64,000 nt of DNA. Origin: Mytilus galloprovincialis. Lineage: Eukaryota > Mollusca > Bivalvia > Mytilida > Mytilidae. The first letter of the stretch is position 1. Each line of letters opens with the position of its first letter. The stretch covers positions 17,386,863-17,450,862 of the forward strand of contig NC_134849.1 of NCBI RefSeq assembly GCF_965363235.1, written 5' to 3'. Of this stretch, positions 7,486 to 56,231 are shown piece by piece. The translations under genes were made by a program, and so were the position numbers. The notes beneath the pieces were generated by a model. The model was not told the origin of the DNA, ran no database searches, and was given only the letters and a program-made list of their open reading frames with translations.

Positions 7486-7490
7486 AAGTA

Positions 7491-12549: not shown

Positions 12550-12587
12550 AATGGCACAATAAGTTTATGTAAGAAAGAAAATTTACC

Positions 12588-18582: not shown

Positions 18583-21500
18583 CATTTTTAATAATATTCA
18601 TTATACCTACCAGTGAAAATTGACATGTATTAAATTAGTCCTATAAGAATATAATTCGCGTTAACTAGTTCTCATCGCAAACATCTATGTAATCTAGAAA
18701 TAAAAAACATCCCTAGGATGTCTGATCACCTTACCTGTGTTATACACCAAAATTCAGGTAAATATACAGTTTTTCTCATCAGTTTTATATTTTGCGAGCT
18801 AGCAACTCCGCAAAGTTTTCAACAAAATTAGAAATTTAATTTTTTTTTCTATTGGAGACTTCTTTAAATAACATAGTATTATTATTATATCGGTTAAATT
18901 GAAAATTAAAATTTATTTGTGAATGGAATCCGATCTCAAGGTGCACGAGAATTCGGAGGTTTAGGTAAACAAAGATACGCCATCTTTTATACCGGCACAT
19001 GAGAAAGATATGTCCAGAACCAAAGCCACTGGTAAAACTAAGAAAAAGCCGTCAAAATCATCTGCATTGCAACAAGAGTATGACAAGAAACTCAAAGGTT
19101 TGGAAGACAATTTTGATAGTAAGTTCGACACTTTATTTAACATGATGCAATCGTTGGCCAATGTTAGAGGGGCAAGTAACAGGTATGCTCAGATCTGACA
19201 CCCTTAGACCCATTATTCCACTAGTTTCGAATCTAGACGAGGATTTAGGTTCTCCTAGAAAATCTTGGAATATAGATTTCGACTCAAGGTCGGAAATTGC
19301 TATACATGTTAGCCCGATAGAAAGGGATTTACTTGGTGATATTTCCTCTGACAATGAGTCAGATAATGAGAGCGAAATTAAAATTGAACAGTCAACAGGT
19401 TGTGTTGCTAGGAAAGGTGAAAGATTTATGAAACATGTACAATTAAAATCTGTTTAAAATGATGTAAACAAAGATATTGAGATAAGCTCAGATAATATTA
19501 CTAGATATAATGTTTTATCAGATTTGTTTAGTGAGGATATTGCCTCAAACAATGATAAAGGTAGTGTTGGGTTGATTATGGATCAGGCACAAGTCACTAT
19601 TTTGGAACATTCCTGGCGGTGTTAGCACCAAGAGAAACTTTCTGCTTATAGAGAGGAATACAGGAGCTGTTTTCCCGTTCATCATAGTGCTGTAGAGTTC
19701 TTGCAAGTTCCTAGTTTGGACGACTTGCTAGAGCCAATGATGAGAAAGAACCATGGGCCAAAGGCAGTAAAGTCATGAGATACTGGCCATAGACTATTAA
19801 ATACACAGCCTTTAAAACAGATTGAGAAACTTTCATTTCAAGGGCAAATGGCGTCTCGAATGAATGTGATTTCGGGCATGTATATGCAACAGACAATAGG
19901 TACTATGCTTTGGAAGCTTGAGAATTCTCCGTCTTTAAAGCACGAGGAGAAAGTATCATGTTGTCAAATTGTAAAAGATTTGTTCGCAATGTCCACAAAG
20001 TCTTTGGACCAGTCTGGTAGGACTGACCATTGCATTTTTTTCATTTAGTGAGACGTAAGGCTGCATCACATGATTCAGGTCTTGTGAATTTGTCTGATAT
20101 TAAAGACAAAACTCAATATTTGCTTCTATCAGGAGAACCTGTTTTTTTGGGAATGGTCTTAAGTCATGTCTTGAAAAGAGCAAGGAACAAAAGGATCAGT
20201 TGAATGATTTATTACCTGAACTAGGTCAGGGTAGGAAAAGAAGGGCAGATTTTGACAGAGATTGGCAAAATAAGAATCCCAAGTTCAATGTTAAGCATAA
20301 TACTGTGAATGTCAGTTAGACTCGAGGCTCAAATAACAATAGGTCCAATGTGCCTAAGACATCAAATAGTGGGAGACAGCCACAAAGAGACAATTAATGC
20401 TATAAGGGTCCTGCCAAAGAGTCAAATAAGGACAAGACCAACAAGACTGGCCAGAGTAGCTGGGGGTCTTTTTGGTTCCCAAGAAAGAACAACAGTTGAC
20501 TCAAAGGTAGGCTCATGTTTAATGATGTGTACAGAGATTCCTGTAAGGGGTGTCTAAAATATTATTCCAAAATTGGAAAATGATAACAACAGATCAGTGG
20601 ATACTCTCTATAATAAAGGAAGGTTACAAATTGGAATTTCTTCAAAGACCTGCATGGACAGGCATCAAGAAAACAATAATATCTCACAAAAACGCAGATA
20701 TATTTTTGGCAGAAATAAATTCTTATTAGAAAAGGATGCTATAGAAAAGATATTTTTTCCGGAATCTCTCACAGGTTTTTACAGTACACTATTTCTGGTG
20801 CCAAAGACAAACGGGAAAATGAGACCTGTGACAAATTTAAAACCATTAAATGCACATTTTAAGAAAGTCCATTTCAAGATGGACACAATGAGCAAAGTCA
20901 TAAATCTAGTGAAACCAAAAGATTGGGCAGTTTCAATAGATCTGAGCGATGTATATTTCCATGTACCAATAATTCAGAAACATCGTCCGTACATGAGGTT
21001 ATGCATAGCAAATCAATGTTATCAATGGAAAGCAATATGGTTTGGACCATCATGTGCTCCTCGAATTTTTACAAAAAATGATTGGTTGATAGTCAATCAG
21101 GACCAACAGCAATTAGTTCATGCTCGTTTGTTTATGAGACCCATCCAACTTCGTTTGTTAAGTGTTTGGAGCGCACAAACCGGTATCAAGTTGGATTTTA
21201 CAGGCTATTAGAATAGCTTATAATGATGACAATATGAAAGTAAATGCACTTTCCACACGTGCTATAGCTCCAAGTTAGACTTTGTACAAGGGAGCTTCTT
21301 TGACATCAATTTTAGATTCTGCCGACTGGGCAGTTGAATCTACATTCGCAAGGTTTGATTTGCGATATTTCGATGCTACTCAAGTTTTAGAATAGGATGT
21401 TATTTTATTTATATTTGCAGTATAACATGTACCTGTATATAGATGTAATTTGTGGTTTATTTTGTTATGGTGGTAGTTTTTTTTATCCTGTTCGAAAGAT

Positions 21501-34524: not shown

Positions 34525-34608
34525 CTTTGCAATCAGATGTTCGGACACCAATTACCAATGGTAAAATCACAACAATAACCATAAAAAAAAGTCCAATTAC
34601 AGTTGAAA
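34525..34608 (-). CDS. Transmembrane exon (second), minus-strand receptor cluster
   Basis: The acceptor is TTTCGTTTCAG and the donor is AAAG|GTAAGG. The exon is 84 bases, phase 1 to phase 1. It encodes VSTVIGLFFMVIVVILPLVI, then GVRTSDCK. A hydrophobic run of about 20 residues ends in a polar segment, as expected for a single-pass anchor. It may follow the exon at 37888-37950 in the minus-strand Ig gene, where that exon would serve as the stalk. Alternatively it belongs to another copy whose ectodomain exons are lost. A retroelement at 35.1-36.8 kb lies in the intron upstream. Confidence 0.55.
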
Positions 34609-35077: not shown

Positions 35078-36830
35078 TTGTTTTTTACCTTTCAGCTGTT
35101 ATTTAACTGTCTACGGAAAGTGATTTATTTAGCATTAGCAATCGTATTAAACATGTCATTTTCGCTGAAAGGCCGCAACATAACAAAATGTGAACAACAA
35201 AACTTGAATGTTCCTAAAACAAGAAATAACAAACAAATTGGACACACAGAAACCATCAAAACTAATGAATCCATACTCTTTGCCGGACGCGGAAATGCAG
35301 AATGTGACAGTGTTACTATATATGCCCTTGAATTTTTACTAGATAACATTTTTGTCGCTTTGGGGATTCCGTATATCGTCAGATTATCGGAATTCCAATG
35401 GGGACTAACTGTGCACCACTTATTGCGGACCTGTTTTTGTATTGTTATGAGTTACAATTTATGACAAAAATAAGCAAAGACCCATCGAAACAACATCTGA
35501 TAAACAAATGTAATAATACTTTTAGATATTTGGATGATATTTTGGCTCTCAATAATGACGACTTCAGTATGTATATCAATGAAATTTATCCTGTTGAACT
35601 TACTTTAAATAAAGCTAATACTAACAATGACCACTGCCCTTTTCTCGATCTTGATATCTATATCACTAATGGAAAGCTGAATACTAAAATTTATGATAAA
35701 AGGGATGATTTTTCATTTCCTATCGTTAATTATCCGTTTTTAGATGGTGACGTTCCCTTGTCACCATCTTACGGTGTTTATATATCTCAACTTGTACGAT
35801 TCGCTCGTGTATGTAACAATGTTTTAGATTTTAACGAGAGAAATTTATGTATTACTGAAAAATTATTACACCAGGGTTTTCGATATCACAAACTAGTCAA
35901 AACATTTACTAAATTTTATCATCGGTATAAAGACATCATTCGTAAATATAGCTCAACATGCAGACTTCTAATACGTTCAGGTATTTCACATCCAATTTTT
36001 TATGGAAATATTCTTTATAAAGCACAAAGGTGTCAGTATTCACCTCAGAAACTTACAAAACCTTTGAATAGACTTATTAAGAAGGGATATAATTACGATA
36101 CTGTTGTCAAGTCATTAAAGATTGCATATTTTGGCGTTAATATTGAGTCACTGATAAGGTCTTTGCATCGGAACTAAACACATTTATTCTAAAAACAGTT
36201 GTTGGTATGACACGGGTTATGTTCTTCTCATATATGTTATGATGGTATGATACTTAACCCCTAACGGGAAGGATTGTGCCTGATGTTCATATGATGAAAT
36301 CATAATCTTTCAGTCAGTTTAATTGAAGTCTGGAGCTGGCATGTCAGTTAACTGCTAGTAGTCTGTTGTTATTCATGTATTATTGTCATTTTGTTTATTT
36401 TCTTTGGTTACATCTTCTGACATCAGACTCGGACTTCTCTTGAACTGAATTTTAATGTGCGTATTGTTATGAGTTTACTTTTCTACATTGGTTAGAGGTA
36501 TAGGGGGAGGGTTGAGATCTCACAAACATGTTTAACCCCGCCGCATTTTTGCGCCTGTCCCAAGTCAGGAGCCTCTGGCCTTTGTTAGTCTTGTATTATT
36601 TTAATTTTAGTTTCTTGTGTACAATTTGGAAATTAGTATGGCGTTCATTATCACTGGACTAGTATATATTTGTTTAGGGGCCAGCTGAAGGACGCCTCCG
36701 GGTGCGGGAATTTCTCGCTACATTGAAGACCTGTTGGTGACCCTCTGCTGTTGTTTTTTATTTGGTCGGGTTGTTGTCTCTTTGACACATTCCCCATTTC
36801 CATTCTCAATTTTATTACACATGTTTTTGA
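35078..36830 (+). mobile_element. Reverse-transcriptase element, 5'-truncated and broken, with 3' tail
   Basis: The coding region has two overlapping frames. The first (to about 35464) contains the EFLLDNIFVALG block. The second (35398-36177) starts at MGTNCAPLIADLFLYCYE and continues with the catalytic FRYLDDILAL block, YDKRDDFSFPIVNYP, YGVYISQLVRFAR and a basic C-terminus. These blocks match a reverse-transcriptase family I know from bivalves and fish, most like Penelope-type or other endonuclease-poor elements; the exact clade is not certain. A frame break separates the two parts, so the copy is dead. The 3' tail to about 36830 includes 'ggttgagatctcacaaacatg' and 'cgcctgtcccaagtcaggag', a block shared with family M1. 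Confidence 0.7.
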
Positions 36831-37887: not shown

Positions 37888-39874
37888 CTATGGAACGATG
37901 TCTCTTATATTTATCTAAACATTGTTCAAGTCGTGTGTCTGTGAATAGATCTAAAATAAAACTCATTTGATGAGTTCTTAAAACTACATATAAATTACCA
38001 TAACATGCTTCCCATTCCGTATGCTTTCTGTTGTCAATATGTGTTTTGGCAGTCTAGATTTTTTTCACAAGTGTAATCTACTAAATAAGTGTTTTTACCG
38101 GGTTAGTATTAACACGATCAACACAACGGGTGCTATTAGTGGAGCAAGATCTGTTTACCCTTCATGAGCATCTGTAATAACCCATCGTGTTTGATGGAGT
38201 TCATGATGCTTAGTCTTTAGTTTTTAATGTGTTTTTTTTTATATTTTTTTTAGTCTCTAGGTCTTTTCCTTCTCAGTGTCGTTATTTAATATAGTACAGC
38301 TTGATCAAATCACTTATGTTAATAAATAGTATTTGTATATGTATTTGTTCATGCATTGACTTGATTACTGACTCTGACATGGTAAACAGTATGGCAGTAC
38401 TTTGAATTTCTAATCACTTAGATATTTACGTCCTGGAGTTTCATTTGTTTTATTCCGATTGATTACTCTGTGAATTCCTTGATATTAAGGCACTTTTTTA
38501 AAATTTTACACAGAGATAAAAAAATACTGAGACATTATTGCAATTTTTGTAAAATTATTTAACTTTGTCTGGAAACAAGTCTTTATATTCAGTACAGTTA
38601 TATTCTTTACATTAGTCTTTGTTGCATGTCTTTCTATATTTTTATCTTGGAATGACAGATATGAATGTGTTATGAAAATGTTTATGCATGTCCACTTTTA
38701 TTCCCATAAGTATGAAATAGTTCATATTTTACTTTGAATTGGTATTTGCAAGACATAAAGAATATGACAGTTATTATTTTATTTTTCAAATTTGGCTGTT
38801 ATCAGATTCCACCATTGAATATTGTCTTGCATTGAGTTTAACTAGATAGTATACTATTTTAGACATTAAGACGTATGAAGTCGTAGTTCAGATTCCAGTA
38901 TGTGAAGTAAAAGAGTACAGTAAATTTATAGAGGATCACTGCCTATCCTTTGTATTATATACACGGTAAGCTGTGTTCTGTTTTTACATGTTTATTTCCT
39001 AAGGCGTTTTTTTTTGGTGTTTTTTAATTAATGTATGTCTTGTCTATGTTTCTATTGTGTTATTGTTTAGTTTACGATTATCTCCAAATATAATAGTGTA
39101 TCATAATTGATTACTATAAATGATGATCGTTGACACAAGGTGTAATTGTTGTCTGTAGTATTGAATATTGAACAGTTATCGGAAATATACTTTGGTACAG
39201 ATGCTTATGATTTGTAGTAAAACACACTTTATTAATTAAGGTATATTTTGAACTGAAGTTAAAAACTTGTAAAATTTTATTTTTGTTTTTATTGATGTGA
39301 AGATACTTAGAGTCATCGTTCTTTGAACGTATGTATTGTGTCTTATTGTGTGTTTTATATGCTACTACAAGGTGTGTATTTGAGATTGCCTATAATAAAC
39401 CTTTAGAACCCTACTCAGAGTTATCTATGCCCACATTAGTCTACATTGCTTTCCACTTATGATTTGAATGTCCCTTTGGAATATTTTGAACCTCTTTCTT
39501 GGAATTTTTGGATTTTGTTTGTTTCTGTGATATGTTCATTCCTCGTCGAGTTATGATATTGTCGCTTTGATTTCCCCAATTTTAGTTTTCTACTTGTGTT
39601 GACTTTCTATTAGATTACACAGCTTTACCTGCTGTTTAGAACATTTAGTTTAGTTATTATGATTTGTTTATCTAGTTATTTATGTTATGTGTCTAAAGAT
39701 AAATCTTGACTTACTCATTTTTTTCCTTATAAAATAAAACATATGCATTATTGCAACAGAAGAGATAACTCCAACAAATGTCCATGATGTGAATTCTTGC
39801 CAACAATTCTCGCCTATTAAAGGCAAAAGTAAATAAATGTAACAAAATGTGTATTTGCAACTAAGTTTACCCGA

Positions 39875-39929
<55 letters not shown>

Positions 39930-42900
39930 GTCTGTCTGTCAGCCTGCCCGTCTGTCTATCTTTCTTTATCTCTGTCCGTCTGTCTTTTCGTCCGTCAAGA
40001 TGTTCATCCATTCATCTGTCATTCCGTTCTTCATTCCGTCCATCTCTTAATCTATTCACATATCCATCCATCTATCTTTCTGCCAGTGTTGAAAAAAGAA
40101 GATAAACACAAACACGGATTTAAACATAAGCCCTTAAGCGCCCCATATTTTTTTTTTGTAAATCTTCCTTTGCATGTTTGTTAACTTTGCGTTATAACAA
40201 CCATAAACAATGTGTGCGTTATTTCGCGAAGGTTTGCGTTACTTTGCAAAGTTGTGCGTTCAACTGCAATGGTTTGCGTTCTTTCGCATATTTCGTTTAA
40301 CGTTATTTTGCATTATATTGTAAACAAAGAAAGAAAGAAATTTTAAAATAATGTGTGTGACGCTAATAAGTTTCCGTAAAAGCACGAATATGTTTCATGT
40401 CCCTAGTAAAATGCTATATGTTCATATCTTATAAGTCAGATTAAGCATCATTAACTGTGAAACGTTTTCAATGTCTCTAATAAAAACTTGTATGCCGTAT
40501 TTTCATTATGTTAATACTTATTTATTTCCAATATCTTTTGGGCAAACTAACATTTTTGACATGCATTAAAATATATGAAATATACTTACCTAACTTGCTT
40601 TTACCTGAATGTAAATAATTGAAAAATGAATATCGAAAGATATTAACAATACTTAAATACAACACCTACCTATCATACCTATCACATACAAATTAAAAGA
40701 AATCAAAGACAATGCATTTTTTTTAAAAGCTAATGTCTACAAAAAGTTACGTAAACAAAAAATAAAGTGATCGCTGAGTAACCTAAATACCTGTCACCAT
40801 AACACATTGAAGCGTTATCACATGTGAATAAAAACATTTATGGATAAAATTTGACTATTTGAAGTGCAGATGTATCAAATTAGTGACACAGCATTCACGC
40901 AAACAGATATTAAAGTAGGAAGTACATTTTTTGTTTGTCTAATCAATTGTCAACGTCTATGCATACATGTACTCAAAGATTTACAGAAATAAGGATATAT
41001 TTTTGTTTACACTTGTAAATTTAATTTTATGACGGCCCTTTGATAATATTCTAACTGGGTTAGTGAACTGTGATATTCACGTTAAATTTTTTTTCTTCCT
41101 TAGATTTAAATGAGATTAGTATTTGTATAAAACAATGAATTCTAAAAGTTTGTCAATTTTTAAGTTATCAATAGGGCTAAAACGTAACTTTGTCCTTTTA
41201 CATAATAAAACTAGCAAATGTTATTAGTATGCTTGTAATGTAAAATCCAAATGCATTAATTCGTATTTAAAGTCATAAAGAAACGAGTGACCGGTGAAAA
41301 AAAATGTTATTCCAATTCTTGAATCAACAAAAAATCAACAAAAAAGCATGGACATTGAGCACGTGTTTAACATGTACAATCAGATAATAGTTTATTTTAA
41401 GGACATCCGTGCGTATTGTGATCACCGAATTTGTACGAGATGAATCACACTGAGGTAGCTTTGCATACGGAAATAATGTCGGAGGCCTGGAAGGAAGCAA
41501 TTAAAATAAAGTAAACTTTTTCTAAATATGAACAAATTAAAGAATTTTCTTCAGAAAAAAGTATATGTATATGTTTTATAATGAAAACCATCCATTGAGT
41601 TATAAAAAAATTATACGTATTATTTTTTTTTAATTTGAGGTTTCTTATGACTTTAATTTTGTCTCTTTTTCAAAATATAAAATGATTCAATACCTTCTCC
41701 TTTCAAAACCGTAACATTTACACTAGCTGTGCCCAGGTTGGTTCCATGATAACATGTCCATTTTCCGTTAATAGAATCATCAATATGTCCTCGTACGGTC
41801 AACGTTGTAATATTAGTATATGCATCTTGAGTGATACTACAGTTTTTATACAAATGATAACATTCGGAATGAGGTATTGGACTCAGGCAATAAGCTTGTT
41901 CACGATGATACTGGTTAAAAAACTCAACTTTCCAAGTTAAATAATTAACCTTGCACCTAAAGGCAATCATATTATGCTCCGCTGACCAAGTTAGACATAC
42001 TTCAATATTGCAAGGATGGATTTCTGAAAAATATAAAACTCTAACAAACACAGATGTCGATAGATACTGCATGCAAATAGCATATCTAGCTTATCTGTCA
42101 CTGTGGAATAGAGGAGACAGTTAATCACAAACATATCAAATATAAAAATTAACGTTCTTAAGATATTTTAGTTATATACAATGAAGACAATTATTCTCAA
42201 AGTTATTTATATAGAAACGTTCTCAACATTGTTTTAAAGTACGAGTTAGCTACTCTTAGAAGTAAAAAAGACTGAATATGATTTTAATATTATTAACTCT
42301 TCCAGACTTTAAGACACTTTGATAGTGCATAATCTGGTTTTATTGGTATGTTATGAAGTAAAGATGTAGTCATGGCTCAAAGTAAAACTCAAAATATCAT
42401 TATAAGTCTTCATTCGGTTATTTCGATGTTACGGGCATTGGTATTTCAAAGCATATTGCATCTAATCCACCTTCTGATACTGTAATGGCAACTTGTCAAT
42501 CTCTCAAAGAGTTGGGTAATGGATGGATTGTCCACCAACTGTATAACCTCTTAGCGCTACAACATGTCTCTACGCGACTTTCCCTTATGCATTTTTATAT
42601 TTTGTCAAATTTTCCACGAAAAATAGATAGTACTTGACAAAACAAAAAGAACAAATTGTCTTTTACTTCCAGTTTTCCGAAATAATCAAACAATTGTTTT
42701 TCGTATGAGTCCAATGTGGCTTTTGCTTGAGCTTTAGTGCAAATGCACTATTTAATTGAAATTCGATGGTGTTTTAACGATAAGTAAAGGTTTATAATGC
42801 TTGAGAGGAAAAGGATAAAGTATTTAATAATTTTAGAAGGTTTATCGTGTTTTGTGGTAGTTCCGTGATTATATATGGTTAGAAAATAAAAAAGAATCAA

Positions 42901-43370
42901 GCAATGTACAAAAGGGTCAATATTCACATAAAAGCTTAAATTTGCACACTTGAACTGTAGTGTAATTTGGTTTACCTAGCATCTTTCATTAAACGAAATT
43001 GTCAATATTGAGCACACACAATTCAACTTTCATAAAACAAACAGAAGAAATAAGAGTTTTCCATAATTCAAAATGTGATACTACATGCTTTTTAATAACA
43101 TTTCCACATACACTTATATATTTCTTTGTCAATCCATCAAAGTAAGCAAAACATTATATTGTAAAAAAAAAAATTACAAAAACATATAGCATGGTAACAA
43201 ATTGCCAAATTGTACACATCAACAGTAACCACAATTGTTTTCTCAAACAGTACCTTCACCGATTTAACACGATTTGCTGAATGTATATATTACTGACCTG
43301 ACATTTGATATATCATAATTAACAGAATATCCATGACAAAAGCATAACTGTTTTTAATCAATGATATCAT
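37888..43370 (-). CDS. Ig-like single-pass receptor gene, minus strand (5' and middle exons)
   Basis: Exons on the minus strand are 43370-43298, a signal peptide (MISLIKNSYAFVMDILLIMI) with donor TCAG|GTCAG; 42023-41694, an Ig-like domain; 39795-39715, a transmembrane segment (WTFVGVISSVAIMHMFYFI then RKKM) with donor ATGA|GTAAGT; and 37950-37888, a basic 21-residue segment with good splice sites. All are phase 1 at both ends after the first, so they join in any combination. The Ig domain shows FRC (B-strand Cys), TWKVEFF, and LTVRGHIDDSINGKWTCYHG (the D..G.W.C signature), plus extra Cys and N-glycosylation sites. Direct joining gives signal, Ig, membrane and a basic tail. Skipping 39715-39795 and using 34525-34608 gives signal, Ig, stalk and membrane, like the plus-strand gene. 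The terminal exon is unresolved. The acceptor of 39795 is weak. Confidence 0.65.
38100..38230 (+). repeat. Interspersed repeat M2, divergent copy
   Basis: It contains 'tcaacacaacgggtgctatt', 'gagcatctgtaataaccc' and 'gttcatgatgcttagtc', in the order seen in other M2 copies. Confidence 0.55.
39878..39925. repeat. (CT)n microsatellite
   Basis: About 24 uninterrupted CT dinucleotides, followed by degenerate 'ctgtctgtc' tetranucleotide sequence to about 40080. Frames across it encode simple repeats and are not genes. Confidence 0.95.
40124..40378. mobile_element. Short TIR element with GCGTT arrays, copy 2
   Basis: The right end reads 'gacgctaataagtttccgta'. This matches the right terminus of the larger element at 53477-55451 ('ggcgctaatacgcttccgta'), and the left end is a degraded counterpart. 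The interior has several 'tgcgttacttt' and 'tttgcgttctttcgca' units like the array at 54702-54856. It lies in the intron between the Ig exon and the transmembrane exon of the minus-strand receptor gene. Confidence 0.55.
42024..43297. other. Intron of the minus-strand receptor gene
   Basis: No additional exon or repeat that I can support. Confidence 0.45.
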
Positions 43371-43722
43371 GGCCTGTATTCTGAACTGTAAAAAGACGAA
43401 ATAACAATAACAACAACAAAACTGGAACACAAAATGTATCGTCCTTCTGATATAAAAAATTGTACTAGTATTAATAATTATGTGTGGGATGACCTTCTGG
43501 AAAGATAAAGCTTTAATAGTCAATGATGTTGTAGATATTGTTGAACATTGCTTATGAAGGTTGCTTCTGACCAACGTTATTTATTTTTTTAGGGTTAACA
43601 CAAATTACAAAAGGGATTATTTTTTATCAGATTGAAATTTACAGAACTGTACTGCATTAATTTTTTTTTTATGACTCATGTTTAATTGACAATTGACATG
43701 ACATATATGTTTAAGTTTGGTA

Positions 43723-43808
43723 CTAAAGCCTCGGTCACGCCTTAACGGATAGCTCGAATGGATTCCTAAAGCCTCGGTCACACCTTACCGGATAGCACGA
43801 ACGGACGC
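43723..43808 (+). repeat. Two-copy tandem repeat of 43 bp
   Basis: 'ctaaagcctcggtcac' recurs at 43723 and 43766. Each is followed by 'ccttaacggatagc'-like sequence. Confidence 0.8.
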
Positions 43809-44290
43809 CTAACGAATGAAAATGCATTAATGATTTGGGGAAAAAAATAAAACCTTTCTCATATTACGTATCTATATGTTTCGATATGTTGATAGAAACA
43901 CAATTTAAACTCTTTATGTAAATACCGACTTAAAAACAACACAAAATTATAGAACACATCTGCTCTATCATATATGAATATTGCATCGCAATTTGGGACG
44001 GGACGCGAAACAACCTTTTCTCCCCTATGTCGTATCGATTGTGTGATGATTTCTCTGAATTATGTGGAAAAAAACCCACAAAGATGCCTGTAAAATTATC
44101 AAAAAGAAATAACTTACAAATTTATGAATTGTTGGCAAACACTTCAAACACACACTGTTAGAAGATCCGATGTGTAGTAGTGTTTTCAATATGATAATAG
44201 GTATAGAATCGTAATCAATATACTATTGTTAGCTACTAATTTGTTTGTAATGAATATCGACAAGATCACACTGTTTAAAATATGACTGAC

Positions 44291-44371
44291 ATTTGTTTAC
44301 AAAATACAAATCATTTGTTGAACAGATTAATGCATGACTTAATCTGTTTAACAAATGATTTGTAAACAAAT
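44291..44371. repeat. Hairpin, stem of about 33 bp
   Basis: 'atttgtttacaaaatacaaa' followed by 'tcatttgttgaacagattaa' is answered after an 8-bp loop by 'ttaatctgtttaacaaatga' and 'tttgtaaacaaat'. The two arms differ by a few bases and a short indel. Confidence 0.8.
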
Positions 44372-44850
44372 ATATTTTAAACAAAAAAGAACATACCATT
44401 TATTAGTTCTTGTTGTTTCTTAAAAAAATATAGGAGAGTGTATATTGGGTAAGTATATTTATTTATCTTAAGTTTCATATTTGATTTAAAAGTGATGAAC
44501 AAATAGACTTTCAATATAAACTATAAAACAATAAAAATGACTAAATTAATGCTATATATATCTTTAATTTTCAATTATTTCAATGTTGAATTTCGTAAAT
44601 TTTACATATCTTGAATATTGCATGTAAAAGATTTTTCATACAATCTGTTGTGTGACATGAAATTGAGAAAGTAAACGTAACTTCAATTCATGGAGGAGGT
44701 GATCTTTAAGACATGTAAACTTTAGATTGATTTCCAACGGGCAACTTATTACCGTACAGCATCATTACATTTACATACACTTTTTAAAACCTCTGAATAA
44801 TGAAGCACTTCAGTAATATACGTATAAACAAATGTTGTACTGTTATACAA

Positions 44851-45200
44851 CTGTCCCAGTTTCGGGGAAGGGTTGGGATACTGCTAAAATGTTTAACCCC
44901 GCGACATTATTTATGTATGTGCATGTCCTAAGTCAGGACCTGTAATTCAGTGGTTGTCGTTTGTGTATGTGTTACATATTTGATTTTCGTTCATTGTTTT
45001 AATATAAAAAAAGGCCGTTAATTTTCTCGTTTGAATTGTTTTACATTGTCATATCGGGGTGTTTTATAGCTGACTATGGGATATGAGCTTTGCTCATTGT
45101 TGAAGGCCGTACGGTGACCTATAGGTGTTAATGTCTGTGTCATTTTGGTTTCTTGTGGACAGTTGTCTTATTGGCAATCATACCACATCTTATTTTTTAT
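44851..45200 (+). repeat. Interspersed repeat M1, near complete
   Basis: It begins 'ctgtcccagtttcggggaag' and ends with 'ggcaatcataccacatctta'. It carries the internal blocks 'aagtcagga', 'gctgactatg' and 'ggccgtacggtgacctata'. It serves as the reference copy for this window, and a reverse copy lies at 62943-63292. Confidence 0.85.
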
Positions 45201-46147
45201 GTTATGTGGTTATATGCGTATTAAAGTTTTACCAATCATGCCAATGACCAGAAATAAAAGGAAAAAAAGGTAGCCAAAGTAAAAATAAAATCATCAAAGC
45301 ATTTTATTTTAGAATGGTTAATATCTGTCCTAAGTGTTTATGGTTAAACTGTTGTAAAAAGAATACTACTTGTAGCTGCTGAATTTCGAATTAGTACAGG
45401 GTTCTAATTCGTATGCATTTAGTAAGTATTTAAATAAAAATTAAAGCAAGGATGATTCCGAATACTACATATTCAAATGTTATCTTGTAATATTTTGTAT
45501 ATTTTTATTATGATTCCATTTGTTCTAACGTATAGTGACACTCATCATTCAAGAAATGTAAGTTCTTACATTATTTGTAAATTCCACAGTCCTTGAATTT
45601 AATTGATATAGTTTAAAAACATATACTTTTGTAAAACACTTAAAATTAACTGGCCAAACTAATGTATAGCACATGCTTATATAGTTTTGATATATGCATT
45701 TTTTTCATAATGCATGCTTTCTTCGTATCTAATTAATCCAACACTTATTTGATTTTACCACGTAGCATAGTTTCAGGAATGAGTCAACTTTAAAGACAAT
45801 AATAATGAACAAGTACATTAGTGGAACTCATATGTGTTTTGAAATTGTTTTATAGTTATGAATTTCATATGGCATTCTTTTTCTAAAAATAAAACTGCAA
45901 AATGTTTTCCATCTTCTATTTATTAAAATGATAAATACTAGCTAGTTGTACTATCATTTGTTTTTAATGTTATGGATGATCCAGTGAATCATTTTAGATA
46001 ATAAAAAAAGTATTCTAAAAAGTCGTTTCGAAATTAAGGTCATCAATGAAACATACTGGCTTATATTTTGGTTCGCCAGATGGAAGGTCAAATCAAGATT
46101 GAGGCTGAATTCTTTGAAACAACAATATTCAGATGTGTCAATTTAGC

Positions 46148-46745
46148 TTAAGGTGGTATGTGTGTCTTTCGCCATTTTGGATAGTAAAAAAAAAGAGAAT
46201 ATCAGATCAAGATTTTCAATCAAGTAAGCAAAACTTAACGTAGGAATGGAGATATCTAATGTATATTTGTATTTTAAAGAACACATGTATAAGCTTTTAA
46301 CTTATAAATATTAATACTGTTACAAATACAGTTTGTTTTTGCTTGATTTCTAATGTTTTTAAATTGATATCTAAAGGGAATGTAACTCTGAAATAGTGCA
46401 TTTCTTATGGAACCTATATGGAATTTCGCTATTTTATATTTTAGCCGGAAAAACGCACAGTGACTCTATATTATCTTCTAATATGCTCATGGCTATCGTC
46501 TCGTATTTTATTTAACAATTCTATCATTTAGTTTAGCTTCTTATCACATATAATGTACTTTCTTGTATAATTCATAAAAAATGTGTCATTTTGTCACAAC
46601 CTGTAGCCTGAGAAAACACGCGGTGAACTATAATTTTTATTATATTTTTGAACATATATCAATATGTACTACGTTTTGGCAAAGTATGAATAAATTCTAT
46701 CATTTCTAATTTAAACACCCATATATACCATATATACTACCTTAA
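46148..46745 (+). mobile_element. MITE with TTAA target sites (piggyBac-like), third
   Basis: TTAA at 46148-46151 precedes GGTGGTATGTGTG. The right end is the complement of GGTAGTATATATG before TTAA at 46742-46745. The inverted repeat is short and imperfect. The interior is non-coding. Confidence 0.5.
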
Positions 46746-47695
46746 GTAATATGTTTATATCGCGACAATAGCTGTCAGAAAACAAAACTTTCATTTCATA
46801 CTTGTTGATTATCTACTGTTTTAATTGTAATAGTGACAATGAAATAACAATGAAATACGAGGTCTTCAGGTACACAGACCCACTATAAACATATTATAAC
46901 ATACATAGTATGCACTTGATAAAAAGGAATGACATGGGCCAGTGAAGAGCCTATTTTAAGTTATTGTTTAAATGATATATAAAAGTGAAAGATATAAATA
47001 AAGTCAAATATATAGACCTTTTCTTTCTACATGAATAACAATTAATAAAAGAAGAATTGCTTTGGTGAAATCTTTGTTCAATCTAAAAAGATAAAAATAC
47101 ATCTAGTACTTCTTCAGTATCATTCTCATTCACACATTTACCATCAGTTATAATCATTAATAAGTTTTCATTGTTTCCTTACTCGTCTTTTTTTAAATAC
47201 CTGAAAATACGACATGGAGTTTGTCTATATTTAAATGCCATATAGTCACCTACATTGTATAAGCTCTTACAGTTAGTGGTAATAATACTGCATGTCCTCA
47301 TTTTTATTTTTGACAAATCCGTAAAGTAGTTACTGCCTACAATTTACCCGACTAAATAAGACTAGTTCTATTGAAGGGTACACGAGGACAAAATTCATAA
47401 ATAACTCGAGAGACTATGTGTAAGAAATACATAACCTTTTATGTATCGATAATTGGCCATAATTCCAAGTTTAGAAAATTTAGAAATCTGTATAATGAAA
47501 AGTTATTTAACTCAAACCATACAAGAACTCAAAACGTCTTGAAAATACTCTTATCTGATTGAAATATAAGGATATGAAGCAATAATAGAACAATGATATG
47601 CCATACCCTAGTCAAATTATATTCGTTTTATTTTATAGCTATTTTGTCGTAAATTACAACAGTTATACAGAAGAAATTAACGTTGCAAAGAAAAT

Positions 47696-50600
47696 ATGGA
47701 TTGGCTTATCCATTTCTTGTTGCTCTTCATATCTAAACATTCAATAGGTGAGTGAATCATTATATGTATTATGCTTATTTAACTAATATATAAATAAATA
47801 CTTTAACCATAAAGATAATCGAAAAGTATTTATGGAAAGTGGTATTGTACTTTACCACGCCAAACTACATACTTAATAGGCTAACGGTTTTATATTTACC
47901 ATTATACTTGTTCTGTCAAGCAGCATGTCCAAGTGGCGGATCTAAAAGGGGGTTCCGGGGGTGTAACCCCCTTTTGTGTACAATCAATGCATTTGAATGG
48001 AGACATCTAGTTAGAACACCCCTTTATCCTGGGTTAGGAAGCCCTTTATATAAATGGTTGGATCATACCCTGTGTCTCTAAACCCTGCTTTTGTGGACAA
48101 TCGATGCATTTGAATGGAGCCATCTAGTTGGGACATCCCTTTATCCTGGGTTAGGATCCCCCCTTATCTTAATGGTTGGATCAGACCCTGTGTCTCTAAA
48201 CCCTGCATGCAACTGATAGATATTCATGTTTGTATCAAAAAATTAAACATTGGATCCATATCATGTATAATCAAGCCTTAACACATATATTTTGATTTAC
48301 CTATCCTGAATTACATTTCTTCAGTTTCATCACGTGGGTTTTATGTTACCCCGTTATCTTAGGTCATTTCAGCATTGTATTTGTCGGTTCGGTGTATTTA
48401 AACCATGTGAATAAACAAACATTTTTAATTAATGTTGGTTCAAGATCGATTTTTTTTTCAGATTGTGTACAAATTATAAATATCAGTGGCAAAGTTATGA
48501 CAGAGAGCACGAATACGACATCATTTTCATTCAAGTGTTCAACGACAGGGAATTTCATGGGGTGTTCTGTTGAATTTCTTTTGGACAAAAAAACGAAAGA
48601 AAATATCAGACAGGTTAATGACAGTTGCTATCATAAACATGGAATATGTAATGCAAACAGATGTGAATGTTCCCCTAATTGTAAGAGTTTTGTCTGGATA
48701 CTAATTCCAAAGACAGACATGACTAATCATACATTTGGTTGTGGAGGTAAAATAGAAAATGCAGTATCCGGCATTCTTTATAGAGCTAATGCCACGCTTC
48801 TATTTGATGGAAACGGTAAGTAGCTATACTAACTAAATCGAATAAAGCTAAATCGGATACTTCTCAGGGAGCATACAATGAATCGTCCGGATATGTTCAA
48901 CCGGAGACAATACACACATTTGAAAAGGAAATATTTACCTAACTGCCTAACAAACACTGACATGAAAAAAAAGAAAAAAAAAAACGTTTGGCAAAAGTCT
49001 GAGGAATCAGAATAGAGTATAAGAAACACGAATCATGTTTTTCAAATGCTCATTCCTACATATGTTCAAAAAAGAATTTTATTATATATGGTAACTAATT
49101 ACCAGTTACGCATTTAAGATCGGAAGGAATAGGATTATTCAAAAACAATAGCAATCAATTTTTGTAATTTAAAAAAAAAATCACAATTATACCAGTTAAA
49201 CCGAAAATCAGTACCATCTGTCATTTAATTATCATTAAATTGATAGTGTCGATATATGAGTGACGATTGAAACAATGAAAAGTCAAATCTGAGAAATCAA
49301 TTCTTGTTGATATCTGAAAAAAGTAGTTCTTTAATATTTTGCATTATTGCTTATACATGTTGCCAAAATATAATGACGTTCTGTTTTTCCAAATGGATGT
49401 TTGATATACTTTCTTAAATATTTCTGTTAAATTGGAAATTCATGATCCTTTTATATCAATAATTTGATAGGCATTTATCTGTCTGTTATTATACGTTTCC
49501 TTCGACGGGTATTATCTGTATGCTATTTTCTGATCGAACACGTATTCATTATTCCAAATATTAGATGGTTGAAAGAGAAAACACGGTTAAAACATACGCA
49601 GTTCCTACTTTGTAAAACATTGACAGTAACTGCACTTTCTGTATAGCATTGGATAGTGAAAAATTGATAGAATAAGTATGAAAAAGTAAAAGTGAACCGT
49701 CTTATGTAATGTATATTTAGATATAGCTATTATACACAAGTTATAACTACTTATGTGTTTGTACACACTTGTAGAATTTTACCTCATCGAAAATTCGACG
49801 CACCAAATCAAAGATTCCACAAACGGACCTACAATTAAAGAACAAGAAAATAAGATAGGTAAGCATTTCATAAAGATATGTACTACACGATAATCATATA
49901 TAAGAGAATCAAATGTTCAAGGCTACATTGTACTATGATTAGGAACGTGATAGGTTCATGTGATACCAGATATAAAACTAGCTACATGTTGTCCTGAAAA
50001 ACCATAAGATGATAAGCAATTATACTTATAAAGATACAACTGTTCTTGCGATTTTCTAAACAAAATACAAAGGACCATCGAAAACCGATTATGTTTTTTT
50101 ATAACGAAAGTGTAATCTAAATAAAAAAAAAGTATACTACAAATACATAAGGTATAAACTGGTAGTTAACCTACGAAACTTATTATTGTGAACCACCTAA
50201 TTTTCCCAAACGATTTTTTTTCGCAACTTTCGCAAGTAGAAAAATAACGCGATTATAAATAGTCGCCTATTTTCAAACTTTGATGTTTCCTTATCCAATT
50301 GCTTCAAGTTAATTTGAAAATCGCGAAATCAAATCGATGCAAAATAGATTAAAAAGAACTAAACGCGAAGAAAAGTATCCACTGAAATAAGTTGTCTAAC
50401 AGCATTCAAATCCCGCTAGGTCATTTTTACATGCTTATGTTAAACTAAGCTGTATTCAGAATTGGTACATACTCTGTAAAAGAAATATGAAATAAACGTG
50501 ATTTCGAATTTAGCGTTTGTTACATGAACTTTTAGACCAAACAGCCTAATGTTCATGCTCATTAACTAACACAACCCTTTGGTGACATACGAGTGTTTGT

Positions 50601-53600
50601 AGTGACGTTGTTTTTAGCCATGCAAAAAAAAAATCCACCATTAAATGATAGCGTCCAATTGCGCATTTTCCCAGGATTTAGATGTAGTGTACGTCCGTAA
50701 AAAATGCGTTTAGCAAGGAAAATGGAATTAAGTGCATTGCTAATATCCACAAATAGACACAAAAGAATCGTCAATATCTTTAACCTTGCATGACATTAAA
50801 CGTTCACATACTCCGAAATTTTACGTGTGTACATGGGTACAGTGTAATGACTTAGTAAAACGCTTAGAAATTGGTTTAAAAAGATTTAAAAAAATAGGTA
50901 ACCTGTAATTAACTGCTACAAGTTAATCACTGTCACAATAACTCTCAATAGTCCCACAAACACATTTCCGTTTGTCCCTCAAAATTTCATTATTTCTTTA
51001 CCTGTAATTCTAAAAAAGGAGACAATCGGTTAGACACCATGAAAATATGAAGAGTCAAAAATTAGTTTTATGGTTCAATAAATTCAAAATAAAGTATTGC
51101 CATTCATTATAGATTAATTTTTGTCAAAAATAAGACTAAAAAAACTTTTTATATTATTTATATTAACAATAAAAACGTACACACATGTTGGTGTTTCGCC
51201 ATAAAAAATTAAAACATTGAAAATAAAAGTAATACTTTTAACCAATAAGAAGACAGTAAATACACCAAATTTATTTATTCGTTAATACGTTTAATTTTGA
51301 ATTGAATGATATAAACTATATCATTTAAAGATCAAGACAATAAGAATCATTAACTTTTCAATATTTAAATAAAAAAAAACCTAGCAAATATCTTGTTGAT
51401 GTTCTGGGGAAAAAAAACTGAGGTTGCTTTAGTGCCAAAACTAAGACAAATTTATTTCATCATAATTTGTCTCTCAAATCATGAAATACCTGCAAACAAA
51501 TTGTTAAGGGAAAATCACTATAGAACTGAATAGACTGTTTGTTCGTCAAGGAAAAATATGTTACAGGAACACTTTAATAGGTTTTCGTTGCATTTATAAG
51601 TTATAACGATATTAATTGTTGTGCATGATCTTTCGTGTTGTATTTGGTTTTGCTTACTCTGAATTATCAATAACGATAGAGTTTTACAATAATTTGAATA
51701 ACTTAACATTTTTTCCGTTATAATAATAGACGAAAAGTAAAACTTCCTTGGCATTTTTCAGATTTTGTTTATGTTATAGTCGGTGGTACAGTGGTGATTG
51801 TTATTTTGTCTGTCGTAATTTTGATTTGTATCATTCGTCGAAAAGACTATGGTATGTACTTATTATATTCATTAAGCATACCCATGAGAAACCATTCTTA
51901 CTCTGCATGAACTTGATTGATATTTCAATATAGAATTGAGAATGGAAACGGAAAACAGATAAAAAGACAACAACTGAAAACAGTCAAAGGCCATAAATGG
52001 TGGGTCTTCAACACACCCAGATATGGCTTCAGTTGGCCCATCATCACATTTGTTTATTTATTCAGCGAAAATGAATGTCAAACTAGACATGGAAACATAG
52101 AAATAAACAGAAGTAAAATGCATCATACAAGTTTTACAAAAGTTAGAGGGACAGGCATGCAATGCGTTGGGGATTAACATGAGATCAACGCTCACTCTAT
52201 AAATCTATCTGATTTTTGATAAACATTTATACGACATAACACACACTCAAACTCAGTCAAAAAAAGGTCTGATCCCAATGTTTGAATTTTTCGAAAAACT
52301 AAGGATTTTCTTATCCCAGGCATAGATTACCTTAGCCGTATTTGGCACAACTTTTTGGAATTTTGGATCCTCAATGCTCTTCAACTTTGTACTTGTTTGG
52401 CTTTATAAATATTTTGATATAAGCGTCACTGATGAGTCTTATGTAGACGAAACGCGCGTCTGGCGTGCTGGATTGTGGTCCTGGTACCTTTGATAACTAA
52501 TTAGAAAACGTAACAAAAGAATCTTATAAAATGACAATAATACATAAAATAACAAAAGACTACTAGCATATGACTGACATGCCAGTTCTAGACCCCACTT
52601 GAAATTATTAAGAGATTGTGTCTTCATCATATGCAAATCAAACACAAACCCTCCCGTTAGTGGTTCAGTATCATACCACCATTAAGTATTCGAGATCGGC
52701 AACTGGATTTAGAAAAAATGTGTTTATTTTTTGTGCACTAACTTTATGAGTAAATTGATATTAATTCCGAAAAATGCCGTGCTTAGTGACATGAACATGC
52801 ATTGTAACTATACCGCTTCTGAATAATCCCATTCGCATGTTTTGTAAGTTTTTGAGGCTTAATGCTGATATTGTTTTGTTTTATGTGAAATACCTTAACG
52901 TATAAGAGGTAACTGAATAGAATGTTACAAATGATTCTTTTGTAGACAAAACTCACTTCTGGCGTACAGAATGTTAAATCTGGTATCTACGATGACTTGA
53001 CTGCATATGCATGTTTAAAGCAATATATAAACCCTGATATAATTCAATGTTTGATTTGAAAAATGCCATGGAAATGCATATTCCCAATACAATTATTGGT
53101 TGCTAAATTGAAGTTGAAAACAATATTTTCTTTTAAAAACGCCGCTCATCTTTCTATAGTTTCTTTCAGTCACATTCGTAAAATGTTATATAATCATTAG
53201 TTGTCTTTGTGATGATATTCAGGACGTGTGTGTACATGTATTTATGTTGCTAAGTGTCAAAATTGAATTTCGTATATTGTTGTTGCTTACTCTAGTGAAA
53301 ATGTTTTGAATTTTCCAAAAAAATCTTGGCATCCAACAATACTTTCTAGTCATAGAAAAACGGTACTGTTAAGGCTTAATCATTAAACTAATGTTCTAAT
53401 TGTTTTTTTTTTTATCACTTATCGATGTTAACTAAAAATTTTAGATATCAACAGTGTTGAAACAATAAGGTAATTGTACGGAAGCGTATTAGCGCCACAC
53501 ATTTTTTTTAAAATTTTTCTTCCTGTGTTGGCGTTTTAACGCAAACCTTTGCGTTATAACGCATATATCTTGATTTCAATTATTCGTTAATTTTTGTATA

Positions 53601-56231
53601 TATGTCCGTCTGTCATTCATTTCGAATGTGATTTACTAGTTGATAAAAAAAGAAACATACATACAAGGCCAAATCATTATGAAAGATATGCAGAGGAATA
53701 ATGGAATACTTGAAGTGCAATTATAGATACATTAAGACTGATTTGTGCATCAGAAAAGTATATAATTTAGCAAGAAAATAGATATAGTTTAGTACATGTA
53801 TATAATCATATTCAAATTGAAAGATCAAAAATAATGTCATACAATTGCGAAACCTCCAAGTCAAATAGACAAAATGATCTTTCTGCTTTAAAATGAATTA
53901 TTAATAAGGAAACATTTTTTTTTTAAATCTCAGAATATGATTATGATTCTTTGATAGAAAGTCATTGAATTTTCATTTCAATATAATGCAGTTATGTTAA
54001 GATGCTTGGGTAGCAATTTGAATAGAGAGCACATGATTTTATTAATAAAAAAGGCAACAGTAGTATACCGATGTTCAAACTCATAAATCCATGGACAAAA
54101 AACAAAATCGGGGTAACAAACTAAAACTGACGGAAACGCATAAATATAAGAGGAGAACAACGACACAACACTACAATGTAACTAACACACACAGAAACGG
54201 ACCAACACCTTCATTCTATACATTTATTGCTTGTTTGAATCTAACCTACTTTACACAATTCTCAAACGAGGTCTTACTTTGGAAGTGTATTTATATTCGG
54301 TTAAAGCTATATTAGCATGGTTGATTTTTTTTCTTCGGTATAACCTCAATTCACTCAATTTTCTTTGTAATATATATACTAGTAGAAACATGAATATCGT
54401 TTTTGGGGGCCTTTATAGTTTGTTGTTCAGTGTGAGCCAATGCTCCATGTAAAAGACCGTACCTTGGCCTATGATGGTTTACTTTTACGAATAGTGACTT
54501 AGATAGTGAGTTGTCTTATTGGAACTCATACCACATCTTCTTATATTATTCTGCGCAATATTAGTCAATGATATGATCTAATTATTCAAGCATTTTACTT
54601 TGCAATGACTACAAAGGTGATAAATTTTAATATATACAGCCTCCTCCATTAATAACTACTGTTTCCTTTGAATCTTAAATAAGAAATAAGATAAAACAAA
54701 TGTTTGCGTTATTACGCAAATGTTGCGTCAAATGATTGCGTTATATGGCAAAGGTTTGCGTTATAATGCAACGGTTTGCGTTTTAACGCAAAAGGTTTGC
54801 GTTTTATCGCAAAGGTTTGCGTTTTATCGCACAGGTTTGCGTTATATAGCAAAGGTCATCTTCGTTAGCCAAGGGTTACGATCCACTCCCGCTCTCTTCA
54901 CCCTTGGCGGATTGAGATAAAATTTCGGAGACACAAGGTAAGGATTTTTATTGGTTGCAGTCAAAACTCGCTGCATCCAATCAAAAAGCGCCTATAACAT
55001 GATCACGTGTAAATGTAGAAAGTGTTTGTAAACAATTACCACGTGTTAACTGTGCAACAAGTTTTTACATCCCTAAACATACGACTAAATTTAGTGACAA
55101 CTTGAATGTTTTTAATCAACCAATAGAAATTCCTGTGTATGTTTCATGGACAAATGCATGAATGTTGACATATATTTTCATTTAAGGCTTTACCAAGTGT
55201 GTAGAATTTTGACGCTACCGTGTTTTTACCTGCAAATTGAAGAGTTCAAGTGCTACCATTGGTCAAGAACAATGTATTCGGAATGGGCGTGATTTTTATC
55301 TTCCGATAGATGGCGCAACATTGTTATCACAAATGTTGGCTCAATCCGCCAAGGGTGAAGAGAGCGGGAGTGGATCGTAATCCTTGACTAGTGAAGATGA
55401 GCAAAGGTTTGCGTTATAAAAAAAAATTTGTGGCGCTAATACGCTTCCGTATAATTGTGTTTTAATTGTGTTTTTTTTAGGAATATTTTCTCGTTCGTAC
55501 ATGTCTCTTTATTTTCACAAGACAGAAAGATCATAATTTTTCTAAGATTATTTTTTGTTTTGTATTTTAGATAATTCTAAAGAAAATTCACCAATGAACA
55601 ACGAAATGGAGTTAGACAGCACTGTAAGTTAAAAACAATAATATGCTTAACAATGTTTCTATGTGTAACTATAACAATCACACTGTTTCTTGAACAAATA
55701 AGTGAAACGATTTTCAGTGTAAGTCTAGAAGTACATACATACGCAAAATATATACAAGGGTTGGGATCATGCTAACATGTTTAACCCTGCCACATTATGT
55801 ATGTATTTGCCTTTACGAAGTCAGGAGCCTGTTTTTCTGTGGTTGCCGTTTGTTTTTGTGTTATATATTTGTTCTTATTCGCTGTTTTGTACATTCATTG
55901 GTCGTAAGTTACCTCGTTTTAACATTTGTGATTTCTATGCCTTTTATAACTGACTTTGTGATATGGGTTATCCTCATTGCTGAAAGCAATACTTTGACCT
56001 AAAGCTGCTATTTTGTGTGTCATATGATCTCTAGTGAAGAGTTTTCTCTTTGATAATCATACCAAATATTCTTTTTTATATTATCTGTAGTTTTTTTTTA
56101 TTGAACTTTATTTGAAAATTAACAAATTCTTTATGTCTTCCTTCTATAAGTTCAATATATTTATGATATTGTTAAATTTGTTTATTTTACAGGCATATGC
56201 ATTTAGTACAGACAGTCAAGCATCAGGATAA
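47696..56231 (+). CDS. Ig-like single-pass membrane receptor, six exons, 223 residues
   Basis: Exons are 47696-47747, 48462-48815, 49775-49858, 51762-51851, 55571-55623 and 56193-56231, ending TAA. All junctions have GT/AG, and the first four introns are phase 1, so the frame holds throughout. Residues 1-17 form the signal peptide (MDWLIHFLLLFISKHSI). Residues 18-135 form one Cys-rich Ig-like domain: FSFKC resembles a B strand and FVWILIPKTDMTNHTFGCGG the E-F region. Nine or ten Cys and five N-glycosylation sequons are present. Residues 136-163 are a stalk. Residues 164-193 hold the membrane segment (FVYVIVGGTVVIVILSVVIL, then RRKDY). Residues 194-223 form a short acidic/Ser tail ending in AYAFSTDSQASG. 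The protein probably sits at the cell surface as a receptor or adhesion protein; ligand unknown. It is divergently paired with the minus-strand Ig gene starting at 43370. Confidence 0.8.
47934..48206 (+). repeat. Two-copy 117-bp tandem repeat in intron 1, led by a CAGTGGCGGAT-like end
   Basis: 'cttttgtg' starts each unit at 47971 and 48088. Both contain 'atgcatttgaatggag' and end 'ctgtgtctctaaaccctgc'. The leading 'agtggcggatctaaaa' resembles the left end of the MITE at 2963. It lies 250 bp before the Ig exon of the plus-strand gene. Confidence 0.8.
51917..52190 (+). repeat. Interspersed repeat M4
   Basis: It contains 'aactgaaaacagtcaaaggc', 'gggtcttcaacac' and 'ggttagagggacaggc'-like blocks that I recognise as a frequent mussel repeat. 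It lies in intron 4 of the plus-strand receptor gene. Confidence 0.6.
52258..52502 (+). repeat. Interspersed repeat M3 with hammerhead-like core
   Basis: The core at about 52425-52465 reads CACTGATGAG, then a stem-loop made by GTCT...AGAC, then GAAA, then an ACGC...GCGT stem. The base at the cleavage position is G, which is not permitted in active hammerheads, so this copy should be inactive. The upstream part contains 'gccgtatttggcacaac'. Confidence 0.65.
54702..54856 (+). repeat. Array of TTTGCGTTATANCGCAAAGG units
   Basis: About seven direct units of 20-24 bp are each nearly palindromic, of the form 'tttgcgtt...aacgcaaagg'. The last unit is split by the nested MITE and resumes at 55400. 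Confidence 0.85.
54857..55399 (+). mobile_element. Nested Mutator-like MITE, 543 bp
   Basis: Terminal inverted repeats of 59 bp (54857-54915 and 55341-55399) match at all but about five positions and include 'gatccactcccgctctcttc'. A 9-bp direct duplication, AGCAAAGGT, flanks it (54848-54856 and 55400-55408). Long inverted repeats plus a 9-bp duplication are typical of Mutator-like elements. The interior is non-coding. The element sits inside the GCGTT array, which gives the order of insertion. Confidence 0.85.
55755..56080 (+). repeat. Interspersed repeat M1, complete but divergent
   Basis: It begins 'gggttgggatcatgctaac' and ends with 'gataatcataccaaat'. It lies in intron 5 of the plus-strand receptor gene. 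Confidence 0.75.

Follow-up and report, generated by a model that had tools for sequence, protein, structure and literature searches.

The DNA analyzed here, a stretch of 64,000 nucleotides from the mussel Mytilus galloprovincialis (C12:17386863-17450862, hereafter the window), contains two predicted genes for membrane proteins with immunoglobulin (Ig)-like domains, which we call R2 (plus strand) and R3 (minus strand), and a search of the genome of this one species (1.385 Gb in 331 contigs) revealed that the divergent R2/R3 pair is a repeated module. This genome also carries an open frame of 770 amino acids with AKPSYPPTYK, the repeat known from a mussel foot protein. The original prediction had proposed head-to-head membrane-receptor genes built from phase-1 exons with start codons ~4.3 kb apart on opposite strands. 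Both genes re-splice in frame, the proposed range and phases hold, and the divergent start codons were measured to be 4,325 bp apart. The six exons of R2 (47696-56231) re-splice into a single frame of 223 amino acids and are listed together with the region that separates the two genes:

47696..47747, plus strand: R2 exon 1, signal peptide MDWLIHFLLLFISKHSI; donor phase 1; sole signal-exon candidate within 46001-48461
48462..48815, plus strand: R2 exon 2, Cys-rich Ig-like domain of the family termed C2; 117 residues, 9 Cys; phase 1-1
49775..49858, plus strand: R2 exon 3, stalk; phase 1-1
51762..51851, plus strand: R2 exon 4, transmembrane helix; phase 1-1
55571..55623, plus strand: R2 exon 5, cytoplasmic tail; phase 1-0; basis splice sites and frame only
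56193..56231, plus strand: R2 exon 6, end of the tail and stop codon (TAA); AATAAA at ~56338
43371..47695, no strand: region between both start codons, shared upstream of the divergent genes; 4,325 bp

The R2 product is predicted to be a type I membrane protein whose single C2 domain is Cys-rich and Ig-like, with the order signal, Ig-like domain, stalk, one helix and short tail. In the re-spliced model all junctions are of phase 1 except the last, which is of phase 0; AG is present at all five acceptors and the donors read GTGAGT, GTAAGT, GTAAGC, GTATGT and GTAAGT. The helix exon is the sole candidate of that kind in 8.2 kb. Furthermore, a phase-1/1 helix exon lies downstream of the domain in all four R2 genes examined, and across these four genes (35.6 kb) five helix-exon candidates are in sense and one is in antisense orientation. 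A stalk-like exon is also kept between the paralogues L072 and L073. The best Pfam match of the full model is TMEM154 (PF15102, E = 0.00077, 19.8 bits versus a cut-off of 30.3), which spans stalk, helix and tail and leaves the Ig-like domain uncovered. No immunoreceptor tyrosine-based inhibitory motif ([SIVL]xYxx[LVI]) was seen on reading the R2 tail (...KDYDNSKENSPMNNEMELDSTAYAFSTDSQASG), and a comparison of the open frames of the window with those of the paralogous locus P2 revealed no conserved tail for either R2 or R3.

The opposite strand carries the exons and candidate exons of R3:

43298..43370, minus strand: R3 exon 1, signal peptide; donor phase 1; sole signal-exon candidate within 42024-45000
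41694..42023, minus strand: R3 exon 2, Ig-like domain of the family termed V; 109 residues, 7 Cys; phase 1-1
39715..39813, minus strand: R3 exon 3, membrane exon TM1 with juxtamembrane Cys (NCWQEFTSWTFVG); phase 1-1; homologues in P2, L074, L075, L042 and L045
37888..37950, minus strand: candidate R3 exon 4, at the end of the originally predicted range; phase 1-1; good splice sites only
34525..34608, minus strand: tentative second R3 membrane exon (STVIGLFFMVIVVILPLVIGVRTSDCK); phase 1-1; resembles P2 27853-27939

The first three exons (43370-43298, 42023-41694 and 39813-39715) join in frame, all in phase 1, and in the predicted R3 protein a single V-type Ig-like domain is followed immediately by the part encoded by the membrane exon, whose juxtamembrane cysteine is conserved. 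The TM1 exon was found in every one of the four loci covered far downstream (the window, P2, L074 and L075) and in two of the remaining 26 V loci, each of which was covered for ~1.5 kb downstream. All six of these R3 exons have a Cys directly before the helix and a (W/F/Y)T..G motif after it. The candidate exon at 37950-37888 has no counterpart among the matches to P2, the one paralogue compared. Signal-exon candidates within 1.45 kb upstream of the domain are present in 6 of 30 and 7 of 30 loci of the two families, the window included, and the same scan on the opposite strand gave 0 of 30 and 1 of 30.

R3 may possess more than one membrane helix, and if the second membrane exon (34608-34525) is real, the protein would be multi-pass. 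Its score against the P2 exon was reached by 22 of 60,000 shuffles, a value to be read with the 30 exon pairs compared and with a trailing glycine, common by construction, that raises the score; a third candidate membrane exon matches P2 weakly (2002 of 60,000 shuffles). No second membrane exon was found in the 5.7 and 6.8 kb past TM1 of the C5 paralogues L074 and L075, and the three P2 membrane exons, used as genome queries, returned nothing but their own copies at E < 0.1. In Pfam, the joined P2 exons gave sub-cut-off matches only (DUF4293, E = 0.0087; HlyIII, E = 0.0097).

Intron 4 of R2 contains a mobile element at 53472-55456 whose terminal inverted repeats of 38 nt are 95% complementary and which has an internal array of ~20-bp units built around TTTGCGTTATAACGCAAA. 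Nested in this element is another, whose 70-nt inverted arms lie at 54856-54925 and 55331-55400 (90% complementary). By reading, units like those of the array also occur at ~40190-40330 between the Ig-like and membrane exons of R3, and a (TC)n microsatellite (39880-39925) lies ~65-110 bp upstream of the R3 membrane exon in the transcript sense. A plus-strand open frame of 276 amino acids at 35347-36174 looks reverse-transcriptase-like by eye (IGIPMGTNCAPL..) and has no Pfam match at E <= 0.01; should the second membrane exon be genuine, this frame falls inside R3.

Searched against the genome, the C2 exon of R2 gave 31 and the V exon of R3 61 matches at E <= 0.1, self included. Three further queries brought the merged lists to 58 C2 and 63 V places, with one V match containing two stops (C9:85333435) dropped and one C2 exon in L060 added. 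The expected bivalve expansion of relatives is thus present as families of about 60 genome places each, and further members were obtained by the suggested search, here of the whole genome. An open exon in phase 1 with in-phase AG and GT was pickable in all 60 excised loci (30 + 30), with loose scoring and with A7, A13, A14, A17 and B8 re-cut by hand. The C2 alignment comprises 24 of 30 loci (L015, L022, L025, L032, L033 and L036 omitted) and the V alignment 29 of 30 (L063 omitted); A7 is omitted from the C2 tree. Profile comparison indicates that V and C2 are separate domain families, each conserved internally, as the two have no mutual match (hhalign probability 1% and 0.2%). The C2 domains of R2 genes and of a second type of C2 gene, R1, match each other (hhalign 99.4%).

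Our best guess is that V and C2 are both Ig-like, with stronger evidence for V than for C2. In the V family, C23, G86, W88 and C90 are invariant, which fits the (D/N)xGxWxC motif of the F strand and the cysteine spacing of Ig domains (we infer the B- and F-strand names of the cysteines). The C2 family has the almost invariant C25 and C93, but lacks this motif, and by reading neither alignment shows a conserved core tryptophan ~12-15 residues past the first cysteine. The V consensus has only two Pfam matches, Ig_3 (E = 0.028, 15.3 bits, cut-off 30) and ig (E = 0.053, 14.3 bits, cut-off 21.8), the C2 consensuses have no Ig match in Pfam, and none of the 29 V and 24 C2 members exceeds the cut-off of a Pfam Ig model (best E = 0.042, one member each). 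In the Protein Data Bank (PDB), the C2 profile matched Fc-gamma receptor II (E 0.10-0.31, 15 of 17 matches) and the V profile matched the Fc-mu receptor (FAIM3, E 0.25), all non-significant; the V profile also matched dynein light chains (E 0.15-0.92, 18 of 19 matches), again non-significant, which counts against an Ig assignment. PDB searches with the consensus sequences of V and of R1-type C2 gave no matches. Compared with 12 Ig domains from this genome, the profiles reached p = 0.021 (V), 0.088 (R2-type C2) and 0.0025 (R1-type C2) at hhalign probabilities of 2.3, 0.7 and 12%, with only 26-30 columns near the first Cys aligned. Single-sequence AF2 models of both Ig-like exons have a mean pLDDT of 32.6 and 32.1, too low for a usable fold. 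The term Ig-like in the original prediction is therefore in line with the cysteine pattern and with weak Ig matches, whereas the proposed profile check yielded nothing over the Pfam cut-off and no Ig match for the C2 consensus.

To follow the arrangement across the genome, V and C2 exons that are successive on the same strand within 12 kb were joined, which gave 44 V, 39 C2 and 19 V-C2 genes. Genes with a C2 domain comprise 20 of class R1, 8 of them with a V domain detected upstream, and 38 of class R2, 11 of them with a V upstream; the plus gene of the window is among the 27 R2 genes without one. In the tree, the five rows labelled R1 and the 21 labelled R2 are split by a branch with support 96/90, and eight rows are unlabelled. 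A V-only gene lies within 150 kb of 33 of the 38 R2 genes, and the nearest one is divergent in 26 cases, convergent in 3, in tandem in 4 and absent in 5. None of 20,000 strand shuffles attains 26 divergent cases (mean 8.2, maximum 19), and all 15 R2/V-only pairs less than 25 kb apart are divergent. The divergent pairs are distributed over nine chromosomes (C1, C2, C5, C6, C7, C9, C10, C12 and C14), with gaps of 5 to 105 kb between their Ig-like exons. Furthermore, the wider order [R1 +][R2 -][R3 +] recurs on C1 and at C14:61.4 Mb and is found mirrored at C6:17.4 Mb, at C9:19.6 Mb and on C10. No R1 gene was detected near the window copy, the R1-type query having no match on C12, and no further V or C2 family exon is present elsewhere in the window. 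The small receptor cluster that had been proposed is hence correct in so far as the window holds one pair, but is too small for a cassette of this genomic extent.

V and C2 domains occur in tandem in some R1 and R2 genes, while the genes of the window show one domain each. As 11 of the 38 R2 genes have a V domain upstream, the single-domain gene of the window may be a reduced form. In the R2 genes L020 (391-684) and L021 (227-505) the upstream V (V12/V13) forms a group separate from the remaining V domains. An R2-type domain in the C14 cluster (C14:66645904-66646095) has an in-frame TGA and is likely a dead copy.

The two partners of a pair also share ancestry. Distances among R2 domains and among their R3 partners are correlated (Mantel r = 0.51, p = 5e-5) in 18 of the 26 divergent pairs, namely those with both exons fetched, and the correlation persists when each cluster is represented by a single pair (12 pairs, r = 0.48, p = 7e-4). 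In 11 of the 18 pairs the nearest relative is identical in both families. Two pairs on C5, separated by 37 kb, are mutual nearest relatives in both families, which corresponds to a tandem copy of the whole pair. The closest duplicates (five pairs) have a synonymous divergence (dS) of 0.66-1.2, and blastn of their 3.3-kb loci aligned, besides the exons, a single stretch of 151 bp and two short matches. The ratio of non-synonymous to synonymous divergence (dN/dS) is 0.13-0.34 in those 8 of 11 pairs of relatives whose dS is unsaturated, and positive selection was not seen in these 8 measurable pairwise values. For the exons of the window and a close relative dS is saturated, with proportions of synonymous differences (pS) of 0.78 and 0.75 versus non-synonymous ones (pN) of 0.39 and 0.29. 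Among relatives, the exon families are under purifying selection where this is measurable, and taken together with the sparse flanking alignment these values argue that the families are genuine, of old age and under constraint. That the two Ig-like domains differ so much, formerly read as fast divergence, is explained by their belonging to different, internally conserved families.

The same data bear on the question of whether there are genes here at all. Mobile-element remains in the region could point to chance splice sites amid retroelement debris, but we give this explanation hardly any credence, as exon families of dozens with dN/dS values in the purifying range are difficult to reconcile with it; it is ruled out for both Ig-like exons and for TM1 of R3, and may still apply to the tail exons. 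A more serious alternative is neutral hitch-hiking, in which an ancestral pair was spread by segmental duplication and the proteins are independent innate receptors. Co-phylogeny and fixed order are exactly what unit duplication would produce, and the two C5 pairs are a plain tandem copy. However, at the dS of the closest duplicates partner loss should have become common, and 26 of 38 R2 genes are still in divergent pairs, so that we regard this explanation as rather unlikely.

We assume instead, as the somewhat better than even case, that R2 and R3 form an old co-inherited receptor pair whose products act jointly in recognition. The pair would have been copied as a unit many times, with both members often retained head-to-head, and the persistence of two distinct membrane proteins side by side after many old duplications is best explained if they are partners. 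They could be two chains of a single receptor, or else a receptor on one cell and its counter-receptor on the cell facing it; linkage would keep matched R2 and R3 versions together, and the role would be recognition of cells or microbes.

Several points weigh against this assumption. Unit duplication by itself preserves order and shared ancestry without any physical interaction. The strand shuffle takes duplicated genes as independent and therefore shows a conserved arrangement, not independent origins. We assigned the R1 and R2 labels manually, going by search scores and the tree; in the V tree, domains of R3 type and of R1 type are intermixed, with five changes per label, and 12 of the 38 R2 genes lie outside divergent pairs. 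Gaps of 20-105 kb in many copies make a shared promoter a weak reason for the linkage. In addition, the Ig fold of both domains is a best guess, and a recent mussel study reports that allorecognition between haemocytes is absent (PMC12956514), which speaks against that particular role in these cells.

If R2 and R3 are partners, the manner of the partnership could differ. One cell could display R3 as a ligand, for which R2 (or R1) would be the receptor on a second cell, in the manner of mammalian NKR-P1/Clr, where receptor and ligand families are linked (PMC4041007). Linked, co-duplicated and structurally unlike membrane proteins are in line with such a relation, but the Pfam scans revealed no lectin domain and the pairwise dN/dS is purifying, not diversifying; we therefore consider this version unlikely. 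The likeness to NKR-P1/Clr lies in two linked families of membrane proteins; according to the same text, the mammalian proteins are C-type-lectin-like, belong to one chromosomal complex and have a proven ligand relation, whereas R2 and R3 are Ig-like and spread over the nine chromosomes. Alternatively, R2 and R3 may form a heterodimer in cis, possibly via the juxtamembrane cysteine of R3. In this version R3 would supply V and the cysteine and R2 would supply C2, so that the sum equals the V-C2 layout. The window pair, with its single and different domains as compared to V-C2 in some R1 and R2 copies, and the juxtamembrane Cys, present in all six R3 membrane exons that were found, would fit, but the 11 R2 genes that retain their own V domain and the window R2 stalk, which lacks a juxtamembrane Cys, make a heterodimer equally doubtful.

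In vertebrates, CD47 and SIRP are partners consisting of an Ig-V protein and V-C2-type receptors. By analogy, R3 could be a multi-helix Ig-V protein with a CD47-like topology and R2 and R1 the V-C2-type receptors, with about two dozen co-inherited pairs over the nine chromosomes that differ in specificity and serve each animal as matched channels to recognise cells or gametes, and this topology may be of independent origin or of deep descent. One V-family member matches V-set_CD47 (E = 0.042), but no R3 gene is among the 28 V-set_CD47 matches in the genome and the five-helix membrane family of CD47 (PF04549) has no match in the R3 models; its three matches in the genome are neither over the cut-off nor near an R3 gene. 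We regard this reading as quite improbable.

It is already known that bivalves have expanded Ig-domain receptors. According to the Mytilus pan-genome (PMC7653742) and Pinctada (PMC9646362) papers, these expansions are multi-copy and thought to be immune, and the pearl oyster genes are clustered and often have a membrane helix (PMC9646362). R2 and R3 resemble them in being multi-copy Ig-like proteins. An immune role is plausible for such bivalve genes (PMC7653742) and may hold for R2 and R3. The pearl oyster genes were, according to the same text, called by PF13927, often together with FN3, whereas the R2 and R3 families score beneath models of this kind, and neither paper, in its accessible parts, mentions a fixed divergent pair (PMC7653742; PMC9646362). 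FREP/VIgL proteins are molluscan Ig-like recognition molecules (PMC11999971), as R2 and R3 would be.

Neither a fibrinogen nor a C-type-lectin domain was found by Pfam in the complete R2 model or in R3 as far as read. FREP and VIgL proteins are secreted and carry a fibrinogen or lectin domain, whereas R2 and R3 are predicted to be membrane-anchored without either. In the accessible portions of open-licence full texts, we did not find a description of two such families in a repeated divergent cassette.

The remainder of the window holds further open frames and element remains. A reverse-transcriptase fragment lies at 20558-21208 on the plus strand (RVT_1, E = 2.4e-6, 27.8 bits versus a cut-off of 29.6). 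Two minus-strand open frames of 86 amino acids (3606-3866 and 4587-4847), 981 bp apart and different in one residue, represent a local tandem duplication. Open frames of 436 amino acids at 7329-8639 (plus strand) and of 206 amino acids at 11944-12564 (minus strand) have no Pfam match at E <= 0.01; the latter is hydrophobic after its first ATG, contains several Cys and is perhaps the exon of a secreted protein.

Molluscs are known for expanded recognition receptors, and few cases indicate which receptor pairs with which. Where a divergent pair is conserved and co-duplicated, the probable partner of each receptor is indicated beforehand, so that binding and function could be tested pair by pair. 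Furthermore, R2 and R3 represent two sizeable families of mussel surface proteins that lie below the standard Ig models and may therefore escape annotation.

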